Shown here: one piece after another, positions 35,330-53,838 of the stretch
How positions within the stretch are numbered: the stretch's first letter is position 1
How the letters are laid out: the number at the start of each line of letters is the position of its first letter
Assembly: GCA_030592645.1 (NCBI GenBank)
Contig: JAUVIR010000006.1
Location: 1-63,328 of the forward strand
DNA from: Candidatus Fermentibacterota bacterium
GTDB taxonomy: Bacteria; Fermentibacterota; Fermentibacteria; Fermentibacterales; JCC-6
Length of the DNA: 63,328 nucleotides
Reading direction: 5' to 3'
Program-made: the position numbers and the translations under genes
The notes under the pieces: model-generated
What the model was told of the DNA's origin: nothing
Seen by the model: only the letters and a program-made list of their open reading frames with translations
Databases searched by the model: none

Positions 35330-37852
35330 ATGAAAAAGAAGAAGTCAGGTATTTCAATCGGGTCATTACGTTTTCAGGTATGGAAGCAGCTGATACTTGC
35401 CATCCTGCTAATCACCGCAGTACTCTATCTGTACGACGGTTACAAGAGAACAAGAAGATCGGCCCTTGAAAGCTATTCCACACAGCAGATGATGTATGCC
35501 AACCAGATAGTCAACGATGTACATTTTAGATTCGAGCTTATCAGAAACGTTCTGGAACTCTGGAGCAGTTCAGGGGAGATTCTGTATATATCCGATGAAA
35601 CGTTGTTCTGCATGGAAAGAATTCTTGCTGCCCACAGCAGTTACATATCCGGGGTCACCCGGATGGATGAAAATGGAATCATACGCGTAACAGTACCGTT
35701 TTACGAAGGTACTACGGGTGCTGACATATCCTATCAGGGACATATACAGCAATTGATGGAGTTTCATGGCGCAGTACTCAGCGATGCCTTCATGACGGTC
35801 CAGGGTTACTGGGCAATAGCATATCATGTTCCCTGTTTCGATAAAGAGCATTCTTTTCGGGGCTCTCTCGCTTTTCTTGTGCCCTTCCGCGAAATGTTTC
35901 GACAACTCTTTACCCAGCTTCTGCCGGAGAGCTGTACGATGCCACTGGTTCTGGACAGTGACGGCCTGATACTGTTCTCTCCGCATGAAGAGCACGAGGG
36001 AAGGCACTATTCAGAAGTCTTCCCGGCAGGCAGCGGTGAATTGGACGTGGCAGATGCGGCATTTACCGGCGTTACAGGTTATCTCCTGACGGATTTCAGC
36101 ACCTACACGGAGAACGGGGATCAATCCGAGAGTATGCTTTCAACCATCGTTCCGTTCGATCTTCAGGATGTATCATGGTTCCTTATCCTTTCTACTCCTG
36201 AGTCTTCCGTCATGCGGACCATTTCCGGATTGAGCAATAGATGGCTCTGGGGTATGCTGGCCATAATACTGCTGGCGCTGCTTTACAGCACACTTAAAGT
36301 CAGAGTATGGATCACTTCGAAAGAAGAGAAGAAACGGGAAGACATCGCCCATCTTAAGAATGTTCTCATAAGAACTGTGAATCAGGCCCAGGAGATTATC
36401 GTTATTCTCGATAAAAGGGAAAAGGTGCTTTACGCCAACAGGGCGGCTGTAAAGATATCCGGTTTCGGCAAGGATTTCCTGAGAAGCAAGATATCAAAGA
36501 TCCCGTTCCAGAGTATGGAACCGGGTATAAGTGAGATAAGGAATAAGGTTTTCCGGAATGGTACCTGGAAAGGCGTTTGCACTGCAGTGGGCGCTAAGAA
36601 TCGTTTCTTGAAACTTGATTTGACCGTTTCCTCTGTTACTGACCTGGATGGAGCCATTACGAATTTTATAATCATCGCCAGGGATGTTACGGTGCAGATT
36701 GAAATGGAGCGGAGACTTTTCCAGCAGCAGAAAATGGAAGCCATCGGCCAGCTGGCTGGAGGAATAGCGCATGACTTCAATAATCTCCTTGTAGGAATAC
36801 TCGGTTATGCCGAACTCCTGAAGAAGCACCACTCAGGAGTTGGTGATGTAGCAGAGGCTGCAGATGTTATCATTGCGGCTGTTCATCGGGGATCAGAGCT
36901 TACAAGACAGCTTCTCGGGTACGCGCGAATGGGCAAGCATCAGATCGACCGGATTGATATAGGTCAATGCGTGAGGAACGTGAATGATCTGCTGAAAAGG
37001 ACTCTTGATCAGCGAATAAAGGTCGTACTCGATCTTGAAGAGGGGATATTTATAAAAGGTGATTCGTCCCAGATAGAGCAGGTTATCCTGAATCTCGCCG
37101 TAAATGCCAGGGATGCCATGCCGGAGGGCGGAGAGCTGAAGTTTTCACTCAAACTGGAAACAGTACCTGCGGAAATAATCGACGGGTATCGGGAAGGCAG
37201 CCCGGTGGAACTCGCCGTGCTGGAAACGACTGACACCGGGAGTGGTATTCCCATTGAGAACCACGACAAAATATTTGAACCGTTTTTCACTACTAAAGAT
37301 GAAGAGGGAACGGGCATGGGGCTGGCAACGGTATATGGAATTGTCGCGAATCATGGCGGCTGGATTGATGTTGAAAGTCAGCCTGGCACTGGGGCAGTCT
37401 TTTCCGTTTACCTGCCACTGGATAAGACTTATGAAAAAGAGGAAAATGAAGGATCCATACTGCCTGAAAGAGCATCAGACGGACAGGGTCATACAGTTCT
37501 TGTTGTGGATGATGAATCCATTGTTGTAGCAACACTGACCGAACTCCTCTCGGAGGTCGGGTACAGGGTAATACCTGTTCCCAACGGTAAAAGAGCTGTT
37601 GAAGTGTTCTCTTCAGATCCTGATGGATTCGATGCGGTAGTTCTGGATCTATCCATGCCGGAAATGGACGGTAAGGAGTGCTATGAAAGGCTCCGTGATA
37701 TTGATCCGGATGTTAAAGTTATCCTCATTACCGGATTCAGCAGAGATGGAAGGGTGCAGGAACTACTGGATATGGGCGTGAAGGGATTCCTTCAAAAACC
37801 ATTCCGCCTGAAGAAACTGGCTGCGGCATTAACAGATCTAATAGAGTCATAA
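35330..37852 (+). CDS. Membrane hybrid sensor histidine kinase
   Basis: 840 residues. TM1 (~19-36), a periplasmic Cache-like sensor region (~40-300), TM2 (~303-322), PAS (~345-460), HisKA with phospho-acceptor His481 in GGIAHDFNN, HATPase (NLAVNARDAMPEGG, DTGSGIP, GTGMGLATVYG) and a C-terminal receiver with Asp773 in VVLDLSMPEMDG. No ribosome site is seen before ATG 35330; a TTGTTT-17 bp-CATATT promoter (35292-35320) would start transcription next to the ATG, so the mRNA may be leaderless. No DNA-binding regulator gene is nearby. Confidence 0.9.
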   Translation: MKKKKSGISIGSLRFQVWKQLILAILLITAVLYLYDGYKRTRRSALESYSTQQMMYANQIVNDVHFRFELIRNVLELWSSSGEILYISDETLFCMERILAAHSSYISGVTRMDENGIIRVTVPFYEGTTGADISYQGHIQQLMEFHGAVLSDAFMTVQGYWAIAYHVPCFDKEHSFRGSLAFLVPFREMFRQLFTQLLPESCTMPLVLDSDGLILFSPHEEHEGRHYSEVFPAGSGELDVADAAFTGVTGYLLTDFSTYTENGDQSESMLSTIVPFDLQDVSWFLILSTPESSVMRTISGLSNRWLWGMLAIILLALLYSTLKVRVWITSKEEKKREDIAHLKNVLIRTVNQAQEIIVILDKREKVLYANRAAVKISGFGKDFLRSKISKIPFQSMEPGISEIRNKVFRNGTWKGVCTAVGAKNRFLKLDLTVSSVTDLDGAITNFIIIARDVTVQIEMERRLFQQQKMEAIGQLAGGIAHDFNNLLVGILGYAELLKKHHSGVGDVAEAADVIIAAVHRGSELTRQLLGYARMGKHQIDRIDIGQCVRNVNDLLKRTLDQRIKVVLDLEEGIFIKGDSSQIEQVILNLAVNARDAMPEGGELKFSLKLETVPAEIIDGYREGSPVELAVLETTDTGSGIPIENHDKIFEPFFTTKDEEGTGMGLATVYGIVANHGGWIDVESQPGTGAVFSVYLPLDKTYEKEENEGSILPERASDGQGHTVLVVDDESIVVATLTELLSEVGYRVIPVPNGKRAVEVFSSDPDGFDAVVLDLSMPEMDGKECYERLRDIDPDVKVILITGFSRDGRVQELLDMGVKGFLQKPFRLKKLAAALTDLIES

Positions 37853-37889
37853 CAATTATAACCTGTCTTGTATAAAGGTCTTCAGAATA

Positions 37890-39857
37890 ATGAAACTGAA
37901 GAGAGAGGGCCGGGTAGATATGGATACCAACGACAGGGTGCTTGCCGAACAAGCCCTCAGAGAGAGCGAAGAACGATACAGGATGCTTGTAGAAGGATCC
38001 ATGGATGCGATTTATCTTGAATCACTTGATGGAGAAATCCTTGACTGCAATAAAGCGGCCTGTGAAATGCTGGGTTACTGCAAAGATGAGCTTTTAGGGA
38101 TATCTGTCACCGACCTTCTGCCGAAAGACAAACGATATCTGCTGCAGGAGATTGTTGATAAGCTTTTGTCCGATGGTGAATCTTTTGTTGAGGGTGAGAA
38201 CCTCCGTAAGGATGGTACTATTGTTTCAATAGAATCCAGAGCTCGTGTGATTGATACTCCCACAGGAAAGCGGGTTGTGGTTTACGTTCGTGATATCACC
38301 AGAAGGAAACAGTCTGAAAAGAAACTGAGTGAAAGCGAGAGGCGCTTTCGTTCTTTTATGGACCAGCTTCCCGGCGCAGTATTCCTGAAGGATTCTGAAA
38401 GCAGGTATATCTACTTGAACCGCTTCATGAGGGAAGCGTTTGATGCCGATGAAAGCTGGATTGGCAGACCAACCTCTGAATGCTTCCCCATGGAAGAAGC
38501 ACACTCGCTGATCCGGCATGACCGGGATGCTTTCGATAAGAACTACACTATCGATGTTCAGAGAGTCGTTGATTCGAGCGGGAAAGAACGTTTTTTTCAG
38601 ATACACAAATTCAGGATCTCCAAGGGAGAGAGCGGAAACGACATGCTGGGGGGCATCGGTCTTGATATAACGGATCAACTTAATGCTGAGAAGGCAAGGA
38701 TGAAACTTGAAGCGCAGATTCAGCATACCCAGAAGCTTGAAAGTCTTGGTGTTCTCGCAGGCGGTATAGCACACGATTTCAACAATATACTGATGGCCAT
38801 ACTCGGTTATGCTGACCTGGCACTTCTTGACACTGCCGCCGGCAGCCCGGCGGTATCCTCACTGCACGAGATCGAAAAGGCTACGCGGAATGCTGCTGAT
38901 CTGACCAAGCAGATGCTTGCATATTCAGGAAAAGGGACATTCCAGATCATCAAGCTTGATCTGAACGAAATTATTCTGGAGATGACACACCTGCTCAATA
39001 TTTCGATATCGAAGAATGCTGTTATCAAGTATAATCTGTACGATGGACTTCCATCCATTGAAGCTGACCCGTCTCAGATTAGACAGATCGTAATGAACCT
39101 GGTAACAAACGCATCCGACGCGATGGATAAGACAAGTGGTGTAATTTCAATAACGACCAACAATATGGAATGCGACAGTGAATATCTTTCCACCACTTTC
39201 ATGAACGATCAGCTTCCGGATGGAAAATATGTATACCTGGAAGTGTCCGATACAGGCAGCGGCATGGACGAAGAAACCCTTATGAAGATCTTCGATCCCT
39301 TCTTCACCACCAAGTCTACCGGAAGGGGGCTGGGGCTTTCAGCGGTTCTGGGAATTATCCGCGGGCACAGGGGAACTGTAAAAGTGTACTCCGAACCGGG
39401 GAAGGGCACTTCATTTAAAATACTCATTCCATCAGTTGAGGGTGATCCCCAGCCGTTGAATGTATCTCATGAAAGCGAACAGGATAGTGTCCAGAGAGGG
39501 ACGCTGCTTCTGGTAGACGACGAAGCATCCATTCGTGACATCGGGAAAACCATGCTTGAGAAGGCAGGTTATACAGTGATCACTTCCTCAGACGGAAGGG
39601 AGGCGCTTGATATTTTCAGGAAGAGACATAAAGAAATCGACTGTGTAATCCTTGATCTCACAATGCCGCATATGGATGGTGAAGAAACTTTCCGCGAAAT
39701 GCGGAGGGTGCAGAATGATGTACGTGTAGTAATTTCCAGCGGCTACAACAGGCAGGATGTTACCCGGCGATTCATTGGTAAAGGGCTTGCAGGCTTTATA
39801 CAGAAACCGTACAGGCTTTCGGAGCTTACAGCAAAGCTGAAAGAGGTTATCGATTGA
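37890..39857 (+). CDS. Soluble hybrid histidine kinase with two PAS domains
   Basis: 655 residues without a membrane segment. PAS 1 (~18-145), PAS 2 (~150-270), HisKA with His295 in GGIAHDFNN, HATPase (NLVTNASDAMDKTSG, DTGSGMDEE, GRGLGLSAVLG) and a receiver with Asp589 in VILDLTMPHMDG. It follows the membrane kinase by 37 bases and shares its kinase-receiver core, so the pair probably arose by duplication and works together. ATG 37890 is used; ATG 37920 is possible. No separate output regulator is encoded here. Confidence 0.9.
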   Translation: MKLKREGRVDMDTNDRVLAEQALRESEERYRMLVEGSMDAIYLESLDGEILDCNKAACEMLGYCKDELLGISVTDLLPKDKRYLLQEIVDKLLSDGESFVEGENLRKDGTIVSIESRARVIDTPTGKRVVVYVRDITRRKQSEKKLSESERRFRSFMDQLPGAVFLKDSESRYIYLNRFMREAFDADESWIGRPTSECFPMEEAHSLIRHDRDAFDKNYTIDVQRVVDSSGKERFFQIHKFRISKGESGNDMLGGIGLDITDQLNAEKARMKLEAQIQHTQKLESLGVLAGGIAHDFNNILMAILGYADLALLDTAAGSPAVSSLHEIEKATRNAADLTKQMLAYSGKGTFQIIKLDLNEIILEMTHLLNISISKNAVIKYNLYDGLPSIEADPSQIRQIVMNLVTNASDAMDKTSGVISITTNNMECDSEYLSTTFMNDQLPDGKYVYLEVSDTGSGMDEETLMKIFDPFFTTKSTGRGLGLSAVLGIIRGHRGTVKVYSEPGKGTSFKILIPSVEGDPQPLNVSHESEQDSVQRGTLLLVDDEASIRDIGKTMLEKAGYTVITSSDGREALDIFRKRHKEIDCVILDLTMPHMDGEETFREMRRVQNDVRVVISSGYNRQDVTRRFIGKGLAGFIQKPYRLSELTAKLKEVID

Positions 39858-40071: not shown

Positions 40072-41358
40072 ATGTCTGGTGGTAACTTCAATCCATTCAG
40101 GATGGCGCAGGAGCAGTTCGACAAAGTAGCTGACTACCTGGATCTTGATGAGGGTGCAAGGGGTTTACTTAGAAATCCCATGCGGGAGTATCATTTCAAT
40201 ATCCCTGTTCATATGGATGATGGCTCAGTTAAGGTGTTCAGGGGGTTCCGGTGCCAGCATAACGATGCCAGAGGACCGTGTAAGGGTGGAATAAGATTTC
40301 ACCCCCAGGAGACTATTGATACTGTCAGGGCATTATCCATGTGGATGACCTGGAAATGTTCGGTTGTGGACATTCCTCTCGGCGGTGGAAAGGGAGGTGT
40401 CATCTGTGATCCTCATAACCTTTCCATGCGTGAGCAGGAGCTGATCTGCAGAGGCTGGATCCGTCAGCTTGCCCGGAATATAGGCCCCCTTCAGGACATT
40501 CCGGCTCCCGATGTAATGACAAGTCCCCAGCATATGCTCTGGATGATGGACGAATACGAAGCTATTGCGGGTGCTCAATATCCCGGTGTGATCACAGGTA
40601 AGCCGGTAGGCATGGGCGGAAGTCTCGGCAGAACGGAGGCTACTGGTTTTGGTCTGATCTTCACAGTGAGGGAAGCTCTCAAGCAGATGAATATCAGGCC
40701 TGGGGACACAACGGCAAGTTTTCAGGGATTCGGTAACGTTTCCCAGTACGCCATCAAGCTTTACAACCAGCTGGGGGGAACTGTGATCTGTGTATCTTCC
40801 TGGGACCAGGCTGACCAGAAGGCGTATGCATTCCGCAGGAAAGACGGAATAGATCTTGACGAACTCCTCTCTATCACCGACAAGTTCGGCGGTATAGATA
40901 AGCAGAAGGCAGTTGATCTCGGATACGAAATTCTCGACGGGGACTCGTGGATAGAACAGGACGTGGATATTCTTCTGCCGTGTGCCCTTGAGAACCAGAT
41001 CAACGGAGAGACTGCCAGCAGGATAAGCAGCAGAGTGAAAATTATAGGTGAGGGAGCCAACGGGCCTACTACCCCCGAGGCGGACAAGATCATCGAAGAG
41101 AAAGGTATCTTCGATATACCCGATTTCCTCGCCAATGCCGGCGGGGTAACCTGCTCGTATTTCGAGCAGGTCCAGAACAACATGAATTACTACTGGACAA
41201 AGGATGAAGTACTGGGCAAACTTGATCAGAAGATGACTGAGGCATTTGTTGCCGTCAGTGAACTTGCCTCCAAGAACAATCTCTATATGCGTGACGCTGC
41301 CTACATAATAAGCGTCAGCAAGGTGGTTGAGGCCTGCAGGGCCAGAGGCTGGATATAG
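40072..41358 (+). CDS. gdhA: Glutamate dehydrogenase
   Basis: It interconverts 2-oxoglutarate plus ammonia and glutamate. The 428-residue hexameric-type enzyme has the substrate region GPCKGGIRFHP, the catalytic-Lys segment PLGGGKGGVICDP, DIPAPDV, and the Rossmann segment FQGFGNVSQYA; the length and GFGNV motif fit the GDH group common in Bacteria and Archaea. Coenzyme preference cannot be read safely. It is monocistronic, with its own leader and a strong terminator. Confidence 0.95.
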   Translation: MSGGNFNPFRMAQEQFDKVADYLDLDEGARGLLRNPMREYHFNIPVHMDDGSVKVFRGFRCQHNDARGPCKGGIRFHPQETIDTVRALSMWMTWKCSVVDIPLGGGKGGVICDPHNLSMREQELICRGWIRQLARNIGPLQDIPAPDVMTSPQHMLWMMDEYEAIAGAQYPGVITGKPVGMGGSLGRTEATGFGLIFTVREALKQMNIRPGDTTASFQGFGNVSQYAIKLYNQLGGTVICVSSWDQADQKAYAFRRKDGIDLDELLSITDKFGGIDKQKAVDLGYEILDGDSWIEQDVDILLPCALENQINGETASRISSRVKIIGEGANGPTTPEADKIIEEKGIFDIPDFLANAGGVTCSYFEQVQNNMNYYWTKDEVLGKLDQKMTEAFVAVSELASKNNLYMRDAAYIISVSKVVEACRARGWI

Positions 41359-41425: not shown

Positions 41426-42286
41426 ATGGCAAATTGTTTGTTCTGCTCGGATCTGCATGGAAGAACCCGCCGGTACGGGGAACTGTTCCGGGTGATAAGG
41501 GAAGAGGAACCCGATGCGGTCTTTCTGGGAGGTGATCTGCTTCCCGGAGCTGTCCAGATCTTTTCAGCGAATTTTCCTCATAAAAATTTCGTTACCGATT
41601 ACCTTGCGGGTGAACTTACACGAATCAGGGAGGATCAGGGAACAGCCTATCCGGAGATCTTCCTGATACTTGGAAATGATGATGGACGTTGCGAAGAAGC
41701 TGCGATTATTGACGCAGAGAAATGCGGACTGTGGCATTACGTCCATAACAGGAAGCTCAGCCTGGGCTCATTTCATATCTACGGTTACTCCTTTGTACCT
41801 CCATCACCTTTCAGGCTGAAGGACTGGGAGAAATATGATGTGTCCAGGTACGTTGATCCCGGGTGCATCCCTCCGGAGGATGGAATCCACACGGTGCCGG
41901 TATCGGATTATGAGATGCGCTATGGAACCATCAGTGATGACCTTGAGGTTCTTACGGATGGAGATGATCTTTCACGGTCAATAATGCTGTTCCATTCCCC
42001 GCCTTACAGGACGAATCTGGATCGGGCTGCACTGGACGGCAGGATGATCGACCATGCTCCGATGGATGTCCATGTGGGGAGTATCGCCATTCAAAGGTTC
42101 ATTAAGAGGAAACAGCCTCTTATCACCCTTCACGGGCATATACATGAATCCTCCAGGATCACCGGTAGCTGGATGGACAGAGAAGGAGGGACATTCATGT
42201 TCAGTGCGGCTCACGACGGTCCCGAGCTTGCTCTTATCAGATTCGATCCGGATGATCCCGAGTCGGCAACAAGAGAACTGCTCTAA
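41426..42286 (+). CDS. Calcineurin-like metallophosphoesterase
   Basis: 286 residues with a binuclear-metal phosphoesterase core: CSDLHG (~8-12), GGDLLPG (~37), LGNDDG (~87), MLFHSPPY (~190) and LHGHIHES (~233). The usual GNH(D/E) motif reads GNDD, so the conserved His of the active site is Asp. Substrate unknown. Its TAA overlaps the TAG of the converging gene on the other strand, leaving no intergenic space. Confidence 0.8.
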   Translation: MANCLFCSDLHGRTRRYGELFRVIREEEPDAVFLGGDLLPGAVQIFSANFPHKNFVTDYLAGELTRIREDQGTAYPEIFLILGNDDGRCEEAAIIDAEKCGLWHYVHNRKLSLGSFHIYGYSFVPPSPFRLKDWEKYDVSRYVDPGCIPPEDGIHTVPVSDYEMRYGTISDDLEVLTDGDDLSRSIMLFHSPPYRTNLDRAALDGRMIDHAPMDVHVGSIAIQRFIKRKQPLITLHGHIHESSRITGSWMDREGGTFMFSAAHDGPELALIRFDPDDPESATRELL

Positions 42287-45200
42287 CCCTTTATTTCCTT
42301 CATTGCAAGCGGGCGGGCGGGATCAGCTACTGAACCTATCTTGATAGCATAGGACTGTTTCTTCTTTATATCGCTGTCCGTAATGATGTGTACATCAAGA
42401 AGGTGTTCCGTTTTGAAACCGGTCCTGATGTAATTAATCTCACACAGACAGACATCCCAACCGTGGAGATATGATGCCAGCAGTTCACGGGTTCTATCGT
42501 CGCCGTTCGTATGGATCAGAAGGTCTATGTCACTGCATGGACCCGCAGTTGCGTTCTTGGTGCTTCCGAAGAGGTAGATGCCCTTGACACCGTATTTATC
42601 CGGATCGATCTCCGAAGCAAGGTTTTCAGCCATTCGCTGTCTCCACAGCCAGTGTTCATCAGGGTTGGAAACAGAGGTCAAGCGGGTATGCGGAAGCAGA
42701 CCGGACTCTTCCTGACTGGAATCATCCTCTGACACAAGATATGCAATGGCCTCGCCTTCGTCCCCACTCATCGCAATTCTCAGAATCCTCCCTCCCGTAC
42801 TTGCTTTCACATCGATAACCTTCACTACATGGCTCAGGTCGGTGCAGTCCGGAAGGAGTTGGCACAGAGCATTCTCACTCTCTTCAAAGAACTCTCTTCT
42901 GAAAATAACATTGCTGTCATCAGGATAAAGAGGCAGATAGCGTATGCCGGCTTCAACAAGATCCTGGAAGAAATGCGTTCCAAAGGAGAGATCCGGTACG
43001 TAGCTTCCCTTCCGAAAAGCCATTTCTATGAGGGCTGCAGTATTATTGATGTCGGAGTAGGTTACCTGTACGCCAAGCTTTATATCACCTCGGCTGCCCC
43101 ATCTTCCCGGTCCCATAAGGACGAAGCTCTTCTTCGACAGGATACTGTTCAATCTGCCTACGGTTTTTCCGACAGCTACCAGATCCTTCATTTCCTTCAG
43201 GCTGTCATACTCCATGGGATCCACATAAACTATATGCGCTATCTCGCGGATGAATCCGTCCGAGATATACTTATCAGCTGTAAAGAGAATATCATCCGCT
43301 TCCGGCCGTTCGGTAAGGTGAACAGCTTCAGTCTGTTCCCAGGAGCTCTGAGCCCTGCATTGAAGCAGATACAGGTTTTCTCCATCGGCGGCGAACTCTA
43401 TATCCACAGGGAAACCGCATTCCTTTTCCAGAAGAGCAAGGAGGTGTCTCATCGTTTTAAGAAAACCTGTTTTCGGACTAAGCAGTCCTTCAAAGGTTGG
43501 GATAACGTAATCATTCTCGAAATCCGTTAGCCTGCTGACCTGTCTGATCATTCCATCTTTGTGGGTAGAGAATATTCTTGCGACCTGAGGATATTGCGAT
43601 CCATATTCCCGGATGATATCCTCCACCTTTACCGTTTCAATCCGTTCCTCTTCCAGGTTGATCACATCCATGAATTTAGGGGCATATCTTACTGTTTCGT
43701 CCACGCTTGTGTTTACCCTGAGTCCGGGCTGTCCAGGAGCTGCAAGTACAGGGAAATCATCACCCAGGCGGTCTACAGCACGTGTCCCGAGGCCTGGCAC
43801 AAGTCTTATCAATCCATCTTTTGTCCTGATCCTTGCGGACCACCGGAATTCGTTCCTGCTGAAAGCGACCCCGCCATAAGCGGGGAAATAGTACTTCCCG
43901 ACCTTTGTGCCGATCACCTGCTGGATCAGAATACCCATCTCCTCCTGGAAATCCAGCAGGTTCCGCTCGTTCCTGTACTCTATCGCATCGGGACCGAACA
44001 TGGAGGCGTACACTTCGGCAATTGCGTCTATGAGGGCTTCCAACCGTTCTTTTTTTGTGCCCTTATTCGCGATAAACAGACTTTTGTATTTTCCACTGAA
44101 GGCTGCTTCTATACTATCTTCAAGGAGGCTTGAGCTTCGCACGATCAGAGGGTAATCACCGATCGAATCAAGTGTCATGGAGAGTCCCCGTGTCATCTCG
44201 GGGCTGAAAGCGCAATTCTTGAAGAGCTGGATCAGATTCGGGTACTCCAGCCTGATTTCACCAAGATAACGGTACCTGTATTCAAGGAGCTCTTCAAGGC
44301 GGTTGTGATGAACGAAATCGAGTATTCCGTCACTGCATACATACCATGTTAGAGGTGTTCTGATGACGGTCAGCAGAGGATCATCAGCACCTGCATTCTT
44401 GATTATCTTTTCAGCCATGAAGAGACCCGCACCCTTCCCTCCAAGCTGTCCGTGACTTCTGGCGGGAATGATCAGGGAATTCGTCAGTTCGTAGAAATCC
44501 TTGATTGAGATCAATTCCTTAAGACGGCTTATATAGTCAAGTCTTCTGCTCACCAGCCTTCTTATCAGGGATACCTTCAGAGCATTCAGAACCGGTTTCG
44601 AAAGGGTCGCTTCCTCAGTTACAATTCCCTTGTGGTCATCCATGGCCTGCAATATTTCGGGAAGAGAGCTGGCATGGTCATCCAGTACGTTTATCAGATG
44701 TTCTATCCTGTTCTCACCGATCCACCTTTGAAGCAGGCTAAGTATTTGCTCATCGCTCAAATCCCTTCCTGCGATAGAAAAGATTTCCTCGACAAGTTCG
44801 AAGCTGATATCGAACTGCTGTCTTGGGATCGGCCGGTTGATGCCCAGATGGTCAAGGTCAGCATCCTGAGTTGAGGTCTGGCCAGCAAATCTGTTCAGCA
44901 GAGCCGTGGCATCGGTTATCCCTATGAAGCTCATATAATTCAGAAGTCTTCTGGATAGCGTCTGGTAGAGTTTCCTGTCGGTAATGAGAAGCATATCCAG
45001 TATTGCTCTCCAGGATTCTGATCCGTTTCGCACTTCAGAACGATTGGTGTCATCCCCTTCGAACATCTGGGAAAGGCTGTCATGGAGAATTGTATGACTT
45101 ATTCTTCTGGCCAGGGTTCTTATCAGCTTTTTCTCTTCTTCAAGGAATGCGCTGCCCTGTTCCAGTGCGGGCGCTTTATCGGGATAGGAAACAGATAATT

Positions 45201-45483
45201 TTCCAACGATACTATCGTTGATAACCAGATTTTCCGAGAGTTCAGGACCACCCTCACGGTAAGTACTTGATGTATACTCATTATTCCTGTAGACTATCCT
45301 GGCTTTGCAGTGCGTAGGGCTGTACCAGCCCTGAGGCATAGATTCCGCGACCGCCTGAAGTTTCTTCTCAAGGGGTATATCGCTCATCAGGATTTCATCA
45401 GCCATATACAGACAATTAAGTTCCTTTGCTCTCTCCCGGAGGGAGTTCACCAGTAGTTGAGAGTCAATTCCCTTTTCAGTCAT
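42283..45483 (-). CDS. Sensor / PPDK-type ATP-binding / nucleotidyltransferase fusion protein
   Basis: 1066 residues, function unknown. Visible in order: a GAF-like sensor region (~5-150; RERAKELNCLYMADEIL...RIVYRNNEY); a helical linker; a pyruvate,phosphate dikinase/PEP synthase ATP-binding domain (GGKGAGLF ~347, VRSSSLLED ~447, YLLQCRAQ ~706); a C-terminal module with MGPGRWGSRGD (~790) and SFGTHFFQDLVEAG (His837); and a polymerase-beta-type nucleotidyltransferase (LFGSTKN...SDIDLLI, ~968-992). The swivelling-His (TSHAA) and PEP-barrel domains of true PPDK/PpsA are absent. It overlaps the upstream paralogue by 4 bases. Confidence 0.85.
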   Translation of the reverse strand: MTEKGIDSQLLVNSLRERAKELNCLYMADEILMSDIPLEKKLQAVAESMPQGWYSPTHCKARIVYRNNEYTSSTYREGGPELSENLVINDSIVGKLSVSYPDKAPALEQGSAFLEEEKKLIRTLARRISHTILHDSLSQMFEGDDTNRSEVRNGSESWRAILDMLLITDRKLYQTLSRRLLNYMSFIGITDATALLNRFAGQTSTQDADLDHLGINRPIPRQQFDISFELVEEIFSIAGRDLSDEQILSLLQRWIGENRIEHLINVLDDHASSLPEILQAMDDHKGIVTEEATLSKPVLNALKVSLIRRLVSRRLDYISRLKELISIKDFYELTNSLIIPARSHGQLGGKGAGLFMAEKIIKNAGADDPLLTVIRTPLTWYVCSDGILDFVHHNRLEELLEYRYRYLGEIRLEYPNLIQLFKNCAFSPEMTRGLSMTLDSIGDYPLIVRSSSLLEDSIEAAFSGKYKSLFIANKGTKKERLEALIDAIAEVYASMFGPDAIEYRNERNLLDFQEEMGILIQQVIGTKVGKYYFPAYGGVAFSRNEFRWSARIRTKDGLIRLVPGLGTRAVDRLGDDFPVLAAPGQPGLRVNTSVDETVRYAPKFMDVINLEEERIETVKVEDIIREYGSQYPQVARIFSTHKDGMIRQVSRLTDFENDYVIPTFEGLLSPKTGFLKTMRHLLALLEKECGFPVDIEFAADGENLYLLQCRAQSSWEQTEAVHLTERPEADDILFTADKYISDGFIREIAHIVYVDPMEYDSLKEMKDLVAVGKTVGRLNSILSKKSFVLMGPGRWGSRGDIKLGVQVTYSDINNTAALIEMAFRKGSYVPDLSFGTHFFQDLVEAGIRYLPLYPDDSNVIFRREFFEESENALCQLLPDCTDLSHVVKVIDVKASTGGRILRIAMSGDEGEAIAYLVSEDDSSQEESGLLPHTRLTSVSNPDEHWLWRQRMAENLASEIDPDKYGVKGIYLFGSTKNATAGPCSDIDLLIHTNGDDRTRELLASYLHGWDVCLCEINYIRTGFKTEHLLDVHIITDSDIKKKQSYAIKIGSVADPARPLAMKEIKG

Positions 45484-47168
45484 TTGAGTACTGCCCCCAA
45501 TCCTGTTCTGCCATCAATTTTTACTGTCACTCCCTCTTCTATTTTAAGACAGCGGACATGTTCTGTCTCATATATAACTTCACTTCCATCACTGATGATG
45601 TCCAGGTTTAGAGGACCGTCAAGCGGTTCGTTCACCGAAAGATAACCCACGCCGAAGCTGGAGAGATTGTGGAAAAAATGTGATCCCTGACTGAGTTCCA
45701 CCCGCATTCTTGGTCCGGAGATCTCGATCATCGCTTCAGCGCTGGATATATGTCCCCAGGTTACAGGTATACCGAGCCATGGATCGGAGCTTCCCCAGCG
45801 GCCATAACCGATCAGCAGATACCCGTGGTTATCTTTTGAGAGCTTCCTGTTAATTCCCGCAATCTCCGTTGCGATCTGCCTGGTTTTTGATGTGCTGAAA
45901 GTTTCAGGTTTAACGTATACAACGTACTGTATTTCCTTTATGCCGTTGCCAAGAGCCCGGCGGGAGAAGGCCACAGTTCTCGCTCCCCGCATTTCAGCTT
46001 CCGATATGTCCACCTCCTCACTGAATGAGGCTATGGGCCTAACCTGAAGCAGTCCCAGCGATGCGTCTTCCGATTGTCCCGGTCCCGTGACAGCGAATTC
46101 AATTTCCACAGGTCCATCCGCTTCTTCCGAGCATAGTTCAAGAACAGCGCGAACAGCATCGTTGAGAGGGATGTTGCGATCATCAAGAACCGGCGCGAAG
46201 TTAACCACTTTGGGACCTTCTCTGCCGGTTCCGTGTACGAACCTGTCAGATTCAGGCAGATATGTTGATGCTACCAGTTTAAGCGTATCATCGTAGTCAG
46301 CGTCTGCAAGAGGGGATGATACCATGTACTCGGTTTCCGCAACTGGATCGTAAACAGTGATCTTTTCCATGTTTACCGCCCAGAACGTACTCTGGGTTCC
46401 TTTGAGCATATCTCCAGCTGAACCGAATGGTGGGGGCGCCTTGGGATTGGCGGGACTGTAGCTCCAGCAGAGCCCTCCGTCAACAATGCTTTTTCCAAGG
46501 CCAAGGGCCAGATTCACTACTCCATCGGAAGGATTCGCTTTTCCGAATGCATAGTAGTTGAACGAGCGCGCCACTCCGGATATCAAGGGGTAGAACCTGT
46601 TGCCGTATCTCCTTCCGACTACTTTCTGAAGGATTACCGCCATCGTCTCTTCTGAGGCGGAGCCGCCTATTCCTCTGTGAAATTCCCTGGAATCACTGAA
46701 GTATGTGCTGGCCCAGACAAGTTTAACAGCTTCTATCAGTTTTCTGAAGCGTATCTCGTCCGACGGCTGATTGTTCGGGATCATTTTTGTCTGATATATA
46801 CCAGCCAGTGGAGATTTCAGATCATCCTCCAGGAGGCTCGAGGATCTGACCGCTACAGGTTCACGGGTTTTTCCAACGAACTTCCAGAGTTCACCTGTCA
46901 GCCTCGGAGACATCTCTCCCCTGATAAAAGCCATGGCAATTCTGTCATCCGGGTCATTACCTTCAGCATAGGATACGAGGTCGTTGCGTTGAACGAAATC
47001 CAGGAAGAACTCAGTAGTTATTACCGAAAACTCCGGAACGGAAACATGCATTGGAAATGATGCATTACTCCTGCGGTCGAGCAGGCTTTCTATCATGCTT
47101 ACCAGACCGGATGCTTTCCCTCCGATCCTGCTGTCGCCGTAGAATTCCGCACCTGGAACTTTCTTCAT
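45480..47168 (-). CDS. PPDK-type ATP-binding domain protein, paralogue of neighbour
   Basis: 562 residues. The ATP-binding domain of PPDK/PEP synthase starts almost at the N-terminus (RIGGKASGL ~14, VAVRSSSLLED ~103, LLQVRPI ~371). The C-terminal part has IGYGRWGSSDPWLG (~452) and SQGSHFFHNL (His497), aligning with the same module in the downstream protein. No sensor region, phosphohistidine domain, PEP barrel or nucleotidyltransferase is present. ATGA overlap with the next gene shows the two are translated together, possibly as a complex. Function unknown. Confidence 0.85.
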   Translation of the reverse strand: MKKVPGAEFYGDSRIGGKASGLVSMIESLLDRRSNASFPMHVSVPEFSVITTEFFLDFVQRNDLVSYAEGNDPDDRIAMAFIRGEMSPRLTGELWKFVGKTREPVAVRSSSLLEDDLKSPLAGIYQTKMIPNNQPSDEIRFRKLIEAVKLVWASTYFSDSREFHRGIGGSASEETMAVILQKVVGRRYGNRFYPLISGVARSFNYYAFGKANPSDGVVNLALGLGKSIVDGGLCWSYSPANPKAPPPFGSAGDMLKGTQSTFWAVNMEKITVYDPVAETEYMVSSPLADADYDDTLKLVASTYLPESDRFVHGTGREGPKVVNFAPVLDDRNIPLNDAVRAVLELCSEEADGPVEIEFAVTGPGQSEDASLGLLQVRPIASFSEEVDISEAEMRGARTVAFSRRALGNGIKEIQYVVYVKPETFSTSKTRQIATEIAGINRKLSKDNHGYLLIGYGRWGSSDPWLGIPVTWGHISSAEAMIEISGPRMRVELSQGSHFFHNLSSFGVGYLSVNEPLDGPLNLDIISDGSEVIYETEHVRCLKIEEGVTVKIDGRTGLGAVLK

Positions 47169-47316: not shown

Positions 47317-47439
47317 ATGGAACAGAACCACCCCTTTGAATGTATATATTGTAACGAATACGATTATGGCAGGAATGTGAAGTCATTTAAAACGGTAGAA
47401 ACCGATTCCATTGCTGATGTAAAGGGGGAAAATCCTTGA
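47317..47439 (+). CDS. Possible 40-residue CxxC protein ahead of tolQ
   Basis: ATG 47317 opens a 40-codon frame with GGGGA 7 bases upstream. The product begins MEQNHPFECIYCNEYDYG, with one CxxC pair. Its TGA (47437-47439) overlaps the TTG start of tolQ, and the GGGGG site of tolQ lies inside it, so it may act through translational coupling as much as through its product. It could be a chance frame; there is no known family to support it. Confidence 0.45.
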   Translation: MEQNHPFECIYCNEYDYGRNVKSFKTVETDSIADVKGENP

Positions 47440-48104
47440 TTGGACAGGTACTCGGTCTCGTTATTCGAGCCGATATTGTAACGAAACTGATTCTTATAGT
47501 CATTGCTGTTCTTTCTGTGGGATCCTGGGTCGTGGCCATTGCGAAGATCCGTGAATTCAAGACGATACTGGCTTCTTCGCGAACGTTCATGAATGCACTC
47601 AGAACAACCGGAAGGGCGCCGGGCGGGGATTTCTGGAGCAGAAGCAGTGAAGTTGGACCCCTTGCCAGAATGTACGCCGAGGCGGGCAGGTTCCTTCAGA
47701 GAAGGCTTGACAGGGGGGTTACTGAACCACTCTCATCCGAGGAAGTAGGCAGCCTGACAAGCGCCCTTGAACGTGAGGCCGGGGAAGACCTGGCTCAGCG
47801 TGAACGTAATATCGGGCTGCTCGCCACGGTAACAAGCGTTGCTCCCCTGCTGGGGCTGCTTGGGACCGTATGGGGAATACTCTCAAGTTTCATCGGCATG
47901 AAGGAACTTGGAGTAGCCGACCTCAGTGCGGTTGGAGCAGGTATCGCAGCTGCGCTTACAACCACCATCGCGGGACTTCTTGCCGCCATACCCGCAAATA
48001 TCTTCCATAACTTTGTTGTGGGCAGGCTGAATTCGCTGGCGGGAGACATGGACAGATTTCTTTCAGAACTGGTTGATGTATGCAGGAGGGGAAGCCTGGA
48101 ATGA
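47436..48104 (+). CDS. tolQ: MotA/TolQ/ExbB proton channel family protein
   Basis: TolQ forms the inner-membrane proton channel that powers the Tol-Pal system. The 222 residues have a first membrane span (~15-35), a cytoplasmic loop, and two further spans with the family signature VAPLLGLLGTVWGILSSF (~135-155) and AGIAAALTTTIAGLLAAIP. Start TTG 47436 with GGGGG upstream. It is assigned TolQ rather than ExbB because tolB, pal and cpoB follow in the same operon. Confidence 0.9.
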   Translation: MIGQVLGLVIRADIVTKLILIVIAVLSVGSWVVAIAKIREFKTILASSRTFMNALRTTGRAPGGDFWSRSSEVGPLARMYAEAGRFLQRRLDRGVTEPLSSEEVGSLTSALEREAGEDLAQRERNIGLLATVTSVAPLLGLLGTVWGILSSFIGMKELGVADLSAVGAGIAAALTTTIAGLLAAIPANIFHNFVVGRLNSLAGDMDRFLSELVDVCRRGSLE

Positions 48105-48523
48105 TCAAAACCAGGTACAAACAGTTCTCCAGTATCAATATTACCAACCTGGTGGATGTTACTCTTGTCCTTCTGGTGATATTCATGCTGACCTCCCCCG
48201 TTATGCAGAGGAGCGCAGACATTTCTCCACCGGAGTCCAATGAGGGGAGAGTTCTAAGCAATCTTGATCCCTCCGAGTCGCTTGTGGTCGAAATAGACGC
48301 GTACGGTAATCTATCCGTTTCTGGTGAAGCGGTTCTTATGGAGGATCTTTCTGCCCTGGCGGAGGCTGCTTACGCATTGGGCAGATCTGAAGCTTTCGTA
48401 CGGGCTGACCGTGATGTAAGATATGAAGTGGTAGCCAATGCCCTTACAAGACTTGGCAGCGGGGGATACCTGAACATCGGGCTTATTCAGGAAAGCACGG
48501 GTAATAACAGTGAAATTCACTGA
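48101..48523 (+). CDS. tolR: ExbD/TolR family protein
   Basis: TolR pairs with TolQ in the proton channel. The 140 residues start at ATG 48101, overlapping the tolQ stop (ATGA). One membrane span carries the essential Asp (ITNLVDVTLVLLVIFMLTSP, Asp ~18), followed by a periplasmic domain with the usual VRADRDVRYEVV segment. Confidence 0.92.
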   Translation: MIKTRYKQFSSINITNLVDVTLVLLVIFMLTSPVMQRSADISPPESNEGRVLSNLDPSESLVVEIDAYGNLSVSGEAVLMEDLSALAEAAYALGRSEAFVRADRDVRYEVVANALTRLGSGGYLNIGLIQESTGNNSEIH

Positions 48524-49241
48524 TACAGAGGATCACGGCTCAAACAGATATTCGCCTCGCAGGCTTGATTACATTCTTGCCGGTGCAGGGCACCTTATCA
48601 TTCTGGTTATCGGTCTGATCACTTTCTCAAGCAGTGCCCAGGCGCCCACTGGAGGCGATGATGCCGTAATGGTAACGATGATAACTGCAGCTTCCGCTGA
48701 AGAAGTCTCTCCAGCTGAGATAACCGTTCCCGTTGAGATTCCAGATGAAGCAACCAGCATTCAGGTTCCGCTCGAAGTGCCCGTTGAGGAGGAGGAGGTC
48801 ATCGAGGAGCCGGAGATTGAGGAGCACCCCGAGAATCCCGTGGAAGAGAACCCTGAAGAGATCGAGCAGGAGGAGATTCCGGAGGAAATTCCGCATGAGA
48901 TTCCAACGGAGGAGAATCCTGGTTCTGAGGAGGATTTTGTTTCCCTCAGCGGAGGGGGATCAGCGGGGGCTGGCGCTCCGGGACCGGGAACCTACGAATC
49001 CAGAGTGTTCAATGCCGTAAGAAGGGAATACAGGACATCAGTGGAACCTGAGCGATCCTACAGGATAATCCTGACCGTTGATACCGACGGCACTACTACT
49101 GTTGAAGTAATCAGGAAGAGCGGCACTTCCGCCTTTGACAGAGCTGTAGAGAACGCTCTGAGCATAGCTCAGATTCCTCCCATGCCTCCAGGACGCAGTA
49201 TTCCCGCGGTGATAAACATTGAATTCATAGGACCGGAGTAA
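48510..49241 (+). CDS. tolA: TolA/TonB-like energy transducer
   Basis: 243 residues starting at GTG 48510 inside the end of tolR. One N-terminal membrane span (~22-42), a Glu/Pro-rich rigid periplasmic stretch (~70-140; EEEVIEEPEIEEHPENP) and a C-terminal TonB-type domain (RIILTVDTDGTTTVEVIRKSG, FDRAVENAL). By position it takes the TolA role of linking TolQR to Pal/TolB, but the tail is TonB-like, so the name is functional and not homology-proven. Confidence 0.8.
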   Translation: MKFTDTEDHGSNRYSPRRLDYILAGAGHLIILVIGLITFSSSAQAPTGGDDAVMVTMITAASAEEVSPAEITVPVEIPDEATSIQVPLEVPVEEEEVIEEPEIEEHPENPVEENPEEIEQEEIPEEIPHEIPTEENPGSEEDFVSLSGGGSAGAGAPGPGTYESRVFNAVRREYRTSVEPERSYRIILTVDTDGTTTVEVIRKSGTSAFDRAVENALSIAQIPPMPPGRSIPAVINIEFIGPE

Positions 49242-49242
49242 A

Positions 49243-50430
49243 TTGAAAATGTCATACATAGTAATTCTCCTGATTTTTATTACGGCAGCCTCATCCGCGG
49301 ACAGTTTTATCCCCATGTCACCAGTAAGCGCGGAGTGTATTCCCATTTCAGTAAGCGTTGAAGGAGACAGAGATCTCGTTGATATTGCATTGAATCAGCT
49401 TATTGAGGATATCGACTTCTCGGGATTGCTGGTAACCTCTGATGAAGGGTATGCCGAAGCAGCCATCGAAGTGACACGCTCCCTCAGCGGAGTTGAGCTT
49501 CGTGCGGAGGTTATATCCGGAGGAGAACCCCTTCTTGCAAGAAACTATTCGGGAGAGAATATCTATTCGCTGGTTCATGCCTTTGCGGATGACCTTGTAT
49601 ATGACCTGACAGGCGAGGAAGGCATCGCCTCCACCTGGATAGCCTATGTAACAAGAACTTCATCAGGCTACGCCCTTGGTGTGAAATCGCAGGATCCAAG
49701 GAGCACCAGGACAGTGATGTCCGATGAAGATGTTATAACCACACCGGCCTGGTCTCCCGATGGCGATAAAATAGTATTTACGTCGTTCCGGTCGGGTAAT
49801 GCCGACCTCTGGTGTTATAGCTTTTCAGAATCCTCGGCGGAGAAGATACTCAGTTTGCCGGGTCTGAATTCTTCTCCGGCATGGAGTCCCGGCGGTGATG
49901 CTATAGCCCTGACACTTTCAATAAACAGGAATATTGACATTTATCTTCTTGATCCTGCTACCTATGAAAAGACCCGTCTGACGCTCAGAGGATCAATTGA
50001 GACATCGGCAAGTTTCTCTCCGACCGGCAGGCAGATAGTATTCACAAGTGACAGGATAGGCTACCCTCAACTCTATATAATGGACAGCTCCGGAGGCACT
50101 GCCATCAGGGCTACGAATTCTCACGGTTATTGCGACAGCCCCGCATGGTCACCTGACGGCAGCATGATTGCGTATACCGCCCAGACCGGAAGGGATTTTC
50201 ATATATTTGTCATGGACGCGGACGGCTCCAATATCCGCCAGGTCACTTTCCAGGGATCCCTTAACGAAGATCCTGTTTGGGGGCCTACGGGAAGACATCT
50301 CGCTTTCAGCAGCGATAGAGATGGAGAGAGAGCCGTATATATTCTAGAGCTCAATGGACTTACAATAAGAAAACTGTCCGATAGAGGTTGCAGCTACTGC
50401 CCCACCTGGTCACCTCTTGGATTCAGATGA
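49243..50430 (+). CDS. tolB: Tol-Pal system protein TolB
   Basis: TolB is the periplasmic beta-propeller that binds Pal. The 395-residue product has a signal peptide, an N-terminal domain (~25-140) and repeated propeller blades with the motif PAWSPDGDKIVFTS, PAWSPGGDAIAL, PAWSPDGSMIAYTA and PVWGPTGRHLAFSS. TTG 49243 keeps a Lys in the signal peptide; ATG 49249 has better spacing from GGAG and is the alternative. Confidence 0.92.
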   Translation: MKMSYIVILLIFITAASSADSFIPMSPVSAECIPISVSVEGDRDLVDIALNQLIEDIDFSGLLVTSDEGYAEAAIEVTRSLSGVELRAEVISGGEPLLARNYSGENIYSLVHAFADDLVYDLTGEEGIASTWIAYVTRTSSGYALGVKSQDPRSTRTVMSDEDVITTPAWSPDGDKIVFTSFRSGNADLWCYSFSESSAEKILSLPGLNSSPAWSPGGDAIALTLSINRNIDIYLLDPATYEKTRLTLRGSIETSASFSPTGRQIVFTSDRIGYPQLYIMDSSGGTAIRATNSHGYCDSPAWSPDGSMIAYTAQTGRDFHIFVMDADGSNIRQVTFQGSLNEDPVWGPTGRHLAFSSDRDGERAVYILELNGLTIRKLSDRGCSYCPTWSPLGFR

Positions 50431-50465
50431 TCAAAGTTAACATCCAGAAAAGGCGGGAGAGAACT

Positions 50466-51011
50466 GTGAAAACTAAACTTATGACGATACTGGCCTCTTC
50501 GATACTGATCGCCGCTCTGATATCCGTGTCCGGATGCAGGCCTGATGACACAATACCTGACGGTCATGACTCGACCACTGTCGTTGTTATTGACCAGTTC
50601 CCTGATACTCTTGTCGGCGTCTGGGAGACGGATACCCTCTCAATGTCCACCGATATGCTTCTTATTCATCAGGAGCATCTGGAGGATATCTTTTTCGATT
50701 ATGACAGCGATGCTCTTTCCGGAGATGCTCTGAGAATCCTTATGGAAGATGCTTCATACATTATGGAGACTGACGGTTTCAGGGTTCTTCTGGAAGGTCA
50801 CTGCGACGAAAGGGGTACGATAGACTATAACCTTGCTCTGGGGGAGAACAGAGCCCTTGCAGTGTACAACTACCTCGTAAACTACGGAGTTGATACCGAT
50901 CGCCTGGAATACGTAAGCTACGGCAAGGAGAGACCTTTTGATCCCGCCCATACCGAGCAGGCATGGGGACATAACAGAAGGGCCCACTTCCGCGTTCTTC
51001 CAGGGAACTGA
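50466..51011 (+). CDS. pal: Peptidoglycan-associated lipoprotein Pal
   Basis: 181 residues from GTG 50466 (GGGAGAG upstream). Signal peptide and lipobox SVSGC (Cys ~20), then an OmpA-type peptidoglycan-binding domain with FFDYDSDAL, EGHCDERGTIDYNLALGENRA and NRRAHFRVL. It anchors the outer membrane to peptidoglycan and is the terminal acceptor of TolQRA force. Confidence 0.94.
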   Translation: MKTKLMTILASSILIAALISVSGCRPDDTIPDGHDSTTVVVIDQFPDTLVGVWETDTLSMSTDMLLIHQEHLEDIFFDYDSDALSGDALRILMEDASYIMETDGFRVLLEGHCDERGTIDYNLALGENRALAVYNYLVNYGVDTDRLEYVSYGKERPFDPAHTEQAWGHNRRAHFRVLPGN

Positions 51012-51013
51012 TC

Positions 51014-51691
51014 ATGATGCGTTTAGTTATTGCGTCAGTATCGGTTCTGCTGCTCTCTACAGGCTGTTTCGGTTTCTGGGTACATACACCTGCAGAGATA
51101 GAGGATATCAATGCCGATCAGCAGAAGATGCAGGATGAGATAGCCGCGCTCACAGGGGCTGTTGAAGACAATGAGGTGCTTCTGAGAGGTCTTCAGGCTC
51201 AATCGGGAACCAGAACAGCGGATCTTGTTGATCGCCTCTCCGCACTTGCCGATGAACTTGATCTCGCACTGATGAGGCTTGGCTCCGGTCCCGCTGTCAC
51301 AGTCCAGGATACCTCTTCCGGACCCGATGCGCAGCTTCTATACAATGAGGCGTACAGGCAGTTCCAGCAGGGGAGTTTTGAGATCTCAGCTGAGGGTTTT
51401 ATGGAACTCCATGACAGATATCCGGCATCCTCGCTTGCGGACGATGCTCTTTACTACATGGCGATCTGCTGGGAAGAGGCCGGACAATCGCACCGGGCGA
51501 TTGAGGATCTGGTTGCTCTATACTACATGTACCCCGATTCGGAATGGGCACCCGGAGCTGTTTTCAGAGCAGCCGACATATACAGTCTCCATGGAGCCCC
51601 CGGGGAGAGGGACAGACTTTTCGACCTTCTGCTGCTTCGGTATCCCCGCAGCGATGAAGCAGCCCTTGTGAGGGAACTGTATCCGGAGTAG
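51014..51691 (+). CDS. cpoB: Tol-Pal system-associated lipoprotein CpoB/YbgF-like
   Basis: 225 residues beginning two bases after pal. Signal peptide with lipobox LLSTGC (Cys ~18), a coiled coil (~30-90), then TPR-like repeats (~105-220; LLYNEAYRQFQQGSFEISAEGF, ALYYMAICWEEAGQ). E. coli CpoB/YbgF is a periplasmic protein that coordinates cell-wall synthesis with Tol constriction; the lipid anchor here is a difference. Confidence 0.85.
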   Translation: MMRLVIASVSVLLLSTGCFGFWVHTPAEIEDINADQQKMQDEIAALTGAVEDNEVLLRGLQAQSGTRTADLVDRLSALADELDLALMRLGSGPAVTVQDTSSGPDAQLLYNEAYRQFQQGSFEISAEGFMELHDRYPASSLADDALYYMAICWEEAGQSHRAIEDLVALYYMYPDSEWAPGAVFRAADIYSLHGAPGERDRLFDLLLLRYPRSDEAALVRELYPE

Positions 51692-51750
51692 AAGCGGAAT
51701 GGCAGGTAATTAAGAGCCTCTGGCGCCCCTTGTGATTATTCTTGGAAGCT

Positions 51751-51779
51751 TTGACGTAAAAACCATGTCAAGTCATATT
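51751..51779 (+). promoter_or_regulatory. Promoter for tRNA-Leu(TAG)
   Basis: TTGACG (51751-51756), a 17-bp spacer and CATATT (51774-51779) lie 27 bases before the tRNA gene. The expected start near 51786 would leave a short 5' leader for RNase P removal. The assignment is by consensus similarity. Confidence 0.5.
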
Positions 51780-51805
51780 CGAGCCTTACGCACATCAATG
51801 TCGTT

Positions 51806-51891
51806 GCGGGAGTGGCGGAATTGGCAGACGCGCCAGATTTAGGATCTGGTAAGCTTGACTTGTGGGGGTTCAAATCCCCCCTCTCGCACCA
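51806..51891 (+). tRNA. tRNA-Leu(TAG)
   Basis: A type II tRNA. The acceptor GCGGGAG pairs with CTCTCGC (one G-U), A73 and CCA are encoded, and the anticodon stem CCAGA/TCTGG encloses TTTAGGA, giving anticodon TAG. The long variable arm is present. It lies in front of tig, a position often taken by tRNA-Leu. Confidence 0.95.
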
Positions 51892-51959
51892 TAACCCGGG
51901 AGTGTTTCAGATAATGTTTCATTATCGGACAGGCTCCTGAAAAACAGGGAAGATTATTA

Positions 51960-53240: not shown

Positions 53241-53827
53241 TGTCATCAATAGTACCATTTGTTGTAGAGCGGGAAGGGAACAGAGAAAGATCCTATGATA
53301 TCTATTCCCGTCTCCTGAAAGAACGTATCATATTCGTCGGCGATTCCCTCACCAACCAGTCCGCGAGCCTGATTGTAGCGCAGCTCCTGTTTCTGGAGGG
53401 AGAGGATTCCAAGAAAGATATCAATATGTACATAAGCAGCCCCGGAGGTCTTGTCTCCTCAGGGCTTGCAATATACGATACGATGCAGTTCATAAAACCA
53501 CCAATGGCAACGTTCTGTATGGGCACTGCAGCAAGTATGGCTGCCGTTCTCCTGGCTGCTGGAGCGGAGGGCAAGCGGAACATTCTTCCGCATGCCAGAG
53601 TTATGATACACCAGCCCATGGGCGGAGCTCAGGGGCAGGCCAGTGATATAGAGATACAGGCCAGGGAGATCCTCAAACTCAGGGAGAAACTGAATATCAT
53701 TCTCTCTGAGCACACAGGACAACCTCTTGAGAGAATATCACAGGATTCGGACAGGAATTTCTGGATGGATGCTCAGGAAGCAGTTGATTACGGTATTGTG
53801 GACAACGTGCTTATATCCAGAAACTGA
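53240..53827 (+). CDS. clpP: ATP-dependent Clp protease proteolytic subunit
   Basis: ClpP is the serine peptidase core of ClpXP. The 195 residues carry [14 protein letters not shown] with the catalytic Ser (~98), [11 protein letters not shown] with the His (~123) and the Asp near [11 protein letters not shown]. The ATG shares its A with the tig TGA, and clpX follows 11 bases on. Confidence 0.96.
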
Positions 53828-53838
53828 CGGAGTAAAGC

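Follow-up and report, generated by a model that had tools for sequence, protein, structure and literature searches.

What is the function of two overlapping genes whose products both carry the ATP-binding module of PPDK and PEP synthase, seemingly with none of the other parts of those enzymes? The question is raised by a gene pair in a 63,328-nucleotide stretch of a Candidatus Fermentibacterota genome (the window). The original prediction placed two reading frames on the reverse strand, at 42283-45483 and 45480-47168, overlapping by ATGA, and interpreted them as a system for signalling or modification, the short protein acting as the partner. Both frames were recovered at exactly these positions, the overlap being formed by the TGA of the short gene and the ATG of the long gene. 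The pair as described is therefore real, although three elements had been overlooked: a further domain shared by both proteins, here called the GRWGS/HFF domain, a glutamate dehydrogenase (GDH) gene and a convergent metallophosphoesterase gene. With a probability of about 0.5, the pair forms the core of a GDH control system that combines ATP-driven phosphotransfer, GAF-based sensing, an accessory nucleotidyltransferase and probably a reversing metallophosphoesterase. The genes concerned are the following.

40072..41358, forward strand: glutamate dehydrogenase GDH-A, 428 aa, the proposed target (Pfam; one of two ELFV genes in the genome)
41426..42286, forward strand: metallophosphoesterase, 286 aa, its gene converging on the long gene and overlapping it; putative reversing enzyme (Pfam)
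42283..45483, reverse strand: long protein, 1066 aa, with GAF-like, helical, PPDK_N, GRWGS/HFF and nucleotidyltransferase domains (ORF, Pfam, model with pLDDT 83)
45480..47168, reverse strand: short protein, 562 aa, with PPDK_N and GRWGS/HFF domains (ORF, Pfam, alignment)

Within the two proteins, the following domains and residues were delimited.

45046..45462, reverse strand: GAF-like sensor domain of the long protein, residues 8-146 (Foldseek; Pfam GAF in orthologue L044)
44482..45015, reverse strand: all-helical linker domain of the long protein, residues 157-334, common to the LONG and 786-aa classes (DSSP of the model, alignment A1)
43309..44448, reverse strand: PPDK_N ATP-grasp domain of the long protein, residues 346-725 (Pfam, conservation, Foldseek)
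42730..43296, reverse strand: GRWGS/HFF domain of the long protein, residues about 730-918 (no Pfam match; alignment, model)
42973..42975, reverse strand: codon of the invariant His837 (LSFGTHFF) of the long protein (conservation)
42307..42663, reverse strand: MNT-like nucleotidyltransferase domain of the long protein, residues 941-1059 (Pfam, conservation, Foldseek)
46008..47129, reverse strand: PPDK_N domain of the short protein, residues 14-387 (Pfam)
45483..46001, reverse strand: GRWGS/HFF domain of the short protein, residues about 390-562 (alignment, model)
45678-45680, reverse strand: codon of His497 of the short protein, in its GRWGS/HFF domain (alignment)

An AlphaFold model of the long protein (mean pLDDT 83, secondary structure assigned by DSSP) was searched against the PDB with Foldseek and matched the ATP-grasp domains of RPH and PEP synthase, the GAF domain of NifA and nucleotidyltransferases of the MNT/AAD(9) type. 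Outside these three regions the long protein yielded no Pfam domain or Foldseek match, and no small-molecule substrate domain was found in it (Pfam; Foldseek against the PDB). Sequence searches of the PDB returned only the N-termini of PEP synthase and RPH for the long protein and no match for the short one.

The PPDK-type domain had been predicted in both proteins from the motifs GGKGAG/GGKASG, VRSSSLLED and LLQCRA/LLQVRP, which are found in the sequences as described, and the PF01326 profile bears it out with 179 bits for the long protein (E 1.8e-52) and 113 bits for the short one (E 3.1e-32), the Pfam cut-off being 27. Residues K350, R449, D694, E696, Q708 and R710 are invariant in all 48 long proteins compared (alignment A2), and the D-x-E...Q-x-R segment aligns with the true PPDK of the same genome, which is encoded elsewhere (G000:C37). 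The ATP domain of RPH (5hv6) matches the PPDK_N domain of the long protein with a Foldseek probability of 1.00 and a TMt of 0.69-0.73. Mutagenesis of RPH established that the equivalent lysine is essential for activity and resistance (PMC4844700).

The flanking domains of the long protein also correspond to what had been proposed. The GAF-like N-terminus is supported by a Foldseek match to the NifA GAF domain 8jrc (probability 1.00, E 0.02) and by a borderline Pfam GAF match, at the cut-off, in orthologue L044. The nucleotidyltransferase is recognised by NTP_transf_2 at residues 962-1005 (E 4e-7) and by Foldseek to the MNT antitoxin 8xeo (probability 1.00); its residues G973-S974, D985/D987 and D1030 reproduce the MNT-type arrangement GSx(9-13)DxD plus a third carboxylate. 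Most members keep GS..SDID and the third Asp. The DxD motif has become DxN (SDIN) in four loci (L088, L093, L101 and L129), where the PPDK core is intact, and the whole domain is missing from L106, L113 and L116; because of these variants and losses, the nucleotidyltransferase is taken as a conserved but dispensable accessory activity. The SDIN form suggests decaying or altered nucleotidyltransferase activity in those four loci. At L104 and L110, the nucleotidyltransferase is a separate small ORF directly after a GAF-PPDK_N-GRWGS protein, through split genes or frameshifts.

Both proteins had further been described as lacking phosphohistidine and PEP domains. This holds for known profiles, since neither PEP-utilizers (PF00391) nor PEP-utilizers_C matches either protein at E up to 1, and neither protein is among the PF00391 matches of the genome. 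The PPDK_N domain is followed, however, by the GRWGS/HFF domain with its invariant histidine. This domain, with the signature GxGRWGS..D......SxG(S/T)HFF, matches no Pfam family, sits directly after PPDK_N in every homologue and is common to all four paralogue classes; the long and short proteins carry the same domain by hhalign profile comparison (E 3e-58). Across 66 aligned domains, Gly32, Asn63, Leu75, Gly77, Gly79, Arg80, Trp81, Gly82, Gly89, Glu105, Ser116, Gly118, His120, Phe121 and Phe122 are invariant, the histidine thus being present in 66 of 66 domains (alignment A3) and, as His837, in 48 of 48 long proteins (alignment A2). Loop variants of the SxxSH/SxGAH type occur in some short proteins, and a divergent copy, L148, has Asp in place of the His.

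The predicted structure of the GRWGS/HFF domain (pLDDT 94) retrieved no PDB or viral structure with Foldseek at E up to 0.001, swivel domains included. In the model, the histidine starts the third main helix and the last element is a DGxxG hairpin. In PPDK, a swivelling phosphohistidine domain with the order beta-beta-alpha-beta-alpha-beta-alpha(His)-beta comes after PPDK_N. Compared by eye with that fold, the model presumably resembles it in the order of strands and helices and in the position of the histidine, which amounts to a resemblance only. Swivel domains place a canonical T/SxxGGxxxH loop before the histidine (PMC12167813); this loop is absent from the GRWGS/HFF domain, which has SxG(S/T)H instead. 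Profile comparison by hhalign with 13, and then about 30, PEP-utilizers domains gave probabilities of 0.2-0.9%, and 4 of 150 column shuffles scored as high; the best local score lay at the DGxxG end only, so that homology to swivel domains is not established. The GRWGS/HFF domain is therefore not classed as a swivel domain, yet it likely works like one. A histidine relay is possible because a domain with an invariant His follows PPDK_N at the position that the swivel domain occupies in PPDK.

Four classes of paralogue share this core: LONG, a 786-aa form without GAF and nucleotidyltransferase, SHORT, and a form of about 1000 aa that contains receiver domains and DUF5752. In a tree built from 151 core domains, LONG plus the 786-aa form separate cleanly from SHORT plus the receiver form, with supports of 0.99 and 1.00, a division consistent with a two-subunit design. 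The genome under study carries LONG, SHORT and one receiver form, its sole further PPDK_N-GRWGS paralogue. Loci L142-L156, from Chloroflexota and relatives, make up a branch resembling the 786-aa form, mostly without GDH nearby. The Bacteroides locus BT_1971, which was also considered, proved to be a catalase.

Gene neighbourhoods provide the main clue to function. The ELFV GDH genes of the 2.58 Mb genome number exactly two; the LONG/SHORT pair has one of them at a distance of 0.9 kb, and the receiver paralogue, on contig 31, has the other at about 2.8 kb, while the chance of GDH proximity for a stretch of +/-10 kb is about 1.5%. Furthermore, 80 loci from named genomes, mostly MAGs of which a few taxon assignments may be wrong, were surveyed, with counts made by tblastn. 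In 27 of the 29 long-protein loci with 5 kb or more of sequence upstream, GDH is located within 5.5 kb; it mostly shares the strand of the unit and precedes it by 30-590 bp. The usual order is GDH, SHORT or the receiver form, LONG, and then a metallophosphoesterase on the opposite strand. The taxa comprise Ignavibacteria, Zixibacteria, Spirochaetes, Acidobacteria, Planctomycetes, Bacteroidetes, Aminicenantes, Myxococcota, Calditrichota, Krumholzibacteria, Lentisphaerota (the cultured Oligosphaera ethanolica) and relatives of Syntrophomonas, together with two archaeal lineages, Thermoplasmata and Methanomassiliicoccales. In the archaeal MAGs L114, L122 and L125, the cassette reads GDH, receiver form, LONG and phosphoesterase, suggesting transfer between domains. 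The pair thus recurs across phyla, but pairing is not obligatory. SHORT is missing from many loci where GDH adjoins LONG, so the constant pair is LONG-GDH rather than LONG-SHORT; the phosphoesterase is also absent from many loci.

In Bacteroidia, a GDH is found no more than 1 kb away from 22 of 29 receiver-form genes and no more than 5 kb away from 10 of 12 long genes. The LONG-linked GDHs constitute a subtype that shares only 41-44% identity with the GDHs of nine Bacteroidia genomes lacking LONG. Tandem loci in which two receiver forms alternate with two or three GDHs occur at G076:C11:60334-67932, G054:C3:147135-157502, G065:C22:302-10953 and G075:C36:131845-142334.

The association extends to the content of whole genomes. 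Among 42 genomes of the window's phylum, tabulated from match lists with gene fragments scored as present, GDH-A and LONG or the 786-aa form are both present in 33, both absent in 6 and discordant in 3 (Fisher p 4e-5, ignoring kinship), and the corresponding figures for GDH-B and the receiver form are 37, 3 and 2 (Fisher p 9e-4, likewise ignoring kinship). Among 41 Bacteroidia genomes, GDH-B and the receiver form are both present in 22 and both absent in 19, with no discordant case (p 4e-12, ignoring kinship). In family f2, the association of GDH with the long-class protein holds with the genes on different contigs; genomes with the genes on different contigs include G002, G003 and G004. Because it repeats across phyla, shared inheritance alone is an unlikely cause. 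The functional tie to GDH is strong, and the acceptor, which the original prediction had left unidentified, can be narrowed, GDH being the obvious candidate given the gene linkage. The conserved pairing and the GAF and receiver sensor domains accord with the idea of a system for signalling or modification in which the short protein is the partner. Linkage is evidence of a functional tie, and modification of GDH does not follow from it.

The metallophosphoesterase next to the long gene recurs in other phyla. In the window, positions 35330-39857, directly upstream of GDH, encode a Cache/PAS and a PAS-PAS hybrid histidine kinase, both of which include a receiver domain; similar kinases precede GDH in G007 and G010, so these kinases may share a regulon with it. 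On the other side, divergent from the pair, positions 47436-55086 hold what look like genes of the Tol-Pal type (MotA/ExbB, PD40 propeller and adjacent genes) and a ClpX-type gene, an ordinary housekeeping context. A role in anti-phage defence was rejected: PADLOC gave only weak PDC-S09/S10 hits to generic nucleotidyltransferase and phosphoesterase folds, and the pair is surrounded by GDH, tol-pal and clp genes.

For a GDH control system, the following course can be proposed. The PPDK_N domains of LONG and SHORT would bind ATP and pass on phosphate, most likely first to the invariant histidine of the GRWGS/HFF domain in a swivel-like step, and from there it would move to GDH or to the partner subunit. 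Signals received by the GAF domain of LONG, or by the receiver domains of the larger paralogue, would then set the activity or direction of GDH. The nucleotidyltransferase may add a second, optional nucleotidyl mark, and the convergent metallophosphoesterase would probably reverse the process by removing one of the marks. Reversible ATP-driven control of GDH fits the sensors, the intact ATP site, the invariant histidine, the facultative nucleotidyltransferase and the neighbouring phosphoesterase. As to the signal, 2-oxoglutarate is attractive because the GAF domain is NifA-like; this, or another nitrogen or carbon signal, is a guess. A fully covalent circuit, in which a phosphohistidine relay through the new domain and nucleotidylation by the fused transferase modify GDH and a dedicated phosphoesterase reverses them in many phyla and some archaea, is advanced tentatively.

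The rival nearest in plausibility is non-covalent control, in which the proteins, as ATP-driven scaffolds or allosteric partners, would bind to GDH and switch it through conformation, leaving it unmodified. GDH linkage serves this reading equally well, and there is a precedent in GarA, which binds and controls NAD-GDH in mycobacteria (PMC2881912). Moreover, G040 keeps GDH-A with no regulator detected, and a lost modification site sought in its GDH was not visible, 1 of 159 conserved positions differing, and conservatively. A pure scaffold, however, would need neither the PPDK catalytic set and the additional histidine, which are invariant, nor the third carboxylate retained in the nucleotidyltransferase, and we regard this explanation as unlikely.

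It is similarly improbable that the pair is a metabolic dikinase phosphorylating a small molecule from the glutamate/2-oxoglutarate pathway in which GDH would be its neighbour. The nearest folds, RPH and HpeI, are both small-molecule dikinases, and two-component dikinases exist, HpeI showing that the ATP-grasp and His domains can reside on separate subunits (PMC12167813). Fusions to GAF, receiver and nucleotidyltransferase domains nevertheless indicate regulation, no substrate-binding or PEP domain is recognisable with Pfam, and apart from GDH and the phosphoesterase no constant pathway gene was found in the neighbourhood survey. Less probable still is that GDH is a sensor or output neighbour of a system that modifies another protein, such as the partner paralogue, and steers broader nitrogen physiology: the separate contigs in family f2 and the unlinked Chloroflexota branch would suit it, but the subtype-specific pairing with GDH-A or GDH-B and the perfect co-occurrence in Bacteroidia favour GDH itself.

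Among known systems, PPDK and PEP synthase resemble the pair in having PPDK_N with the same catalytic residues and a His-containing domain directly after it, and differ in possessing the PEP-utilizers mobile domain, which the pair lacks by profile, and the PEP barrel. GlnE and GlnD exemplify the control of glutamine synthetase by dedicated nucleotidyltransferase-bearing regulators; the pair would likewise include such a regulator and is genetically tied to an enzyme of nitrogen assimilation, but it has a PPDK_N core in place of the GlnE/GlnD architecture, and its link is to GDH instead of glutamine synthetase or PII. MntA antitoxin-type nucleotidyltransferases share the fold and the GS..DxD motif, whereas here the domain is fused to a PPDK-like core with no HEPN toxin partner seen beside it. 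RPH and HpeHI/PpsAB offer the closest PPDK-type ATP-grasp fold (5hv6, 9goj); unlike them, the pair has no recognisable swivel or drug/phenol-binding domain and has GAF, nucleotidyltransferase and receiver domains and GDH linkage. Post-translational control of a GDH, which the pair would share, is exerted by GarA/OdhI-PknG (PMC2881912), an FHA protein and a Ser/Thr kinase unrelated to the pair and acting on the large NAD-GDH of actinomycetes. A literature search, incomplete for subscription papers, found no paper linking PPDK-like proteins to GDH. The pair is probably an undescribed control system for GDH; the claim of novelty covers the system, while its function is what we infer.

GDH stands at the junction of carbon and nitrogen metabolism, and we know of no dedicated post-translational control of it in most bacteria outside a few models. 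A cassette that is present in many phyla, co-occurs almost perfectly with GDH and includes an unexplained catalytic domain represents a defined and testable candidate. PPDK-type ATP-grasp domains are apparently used here in regulation rather than in metabolism, and many proteins annotated merely as PEP/pyruvate-binding-domain proteins would be assigned a function. If the covalent circuit proves true, GDH would have its own equivalent of the GlnD/GlnE circuit that controls glutamine synthetase.
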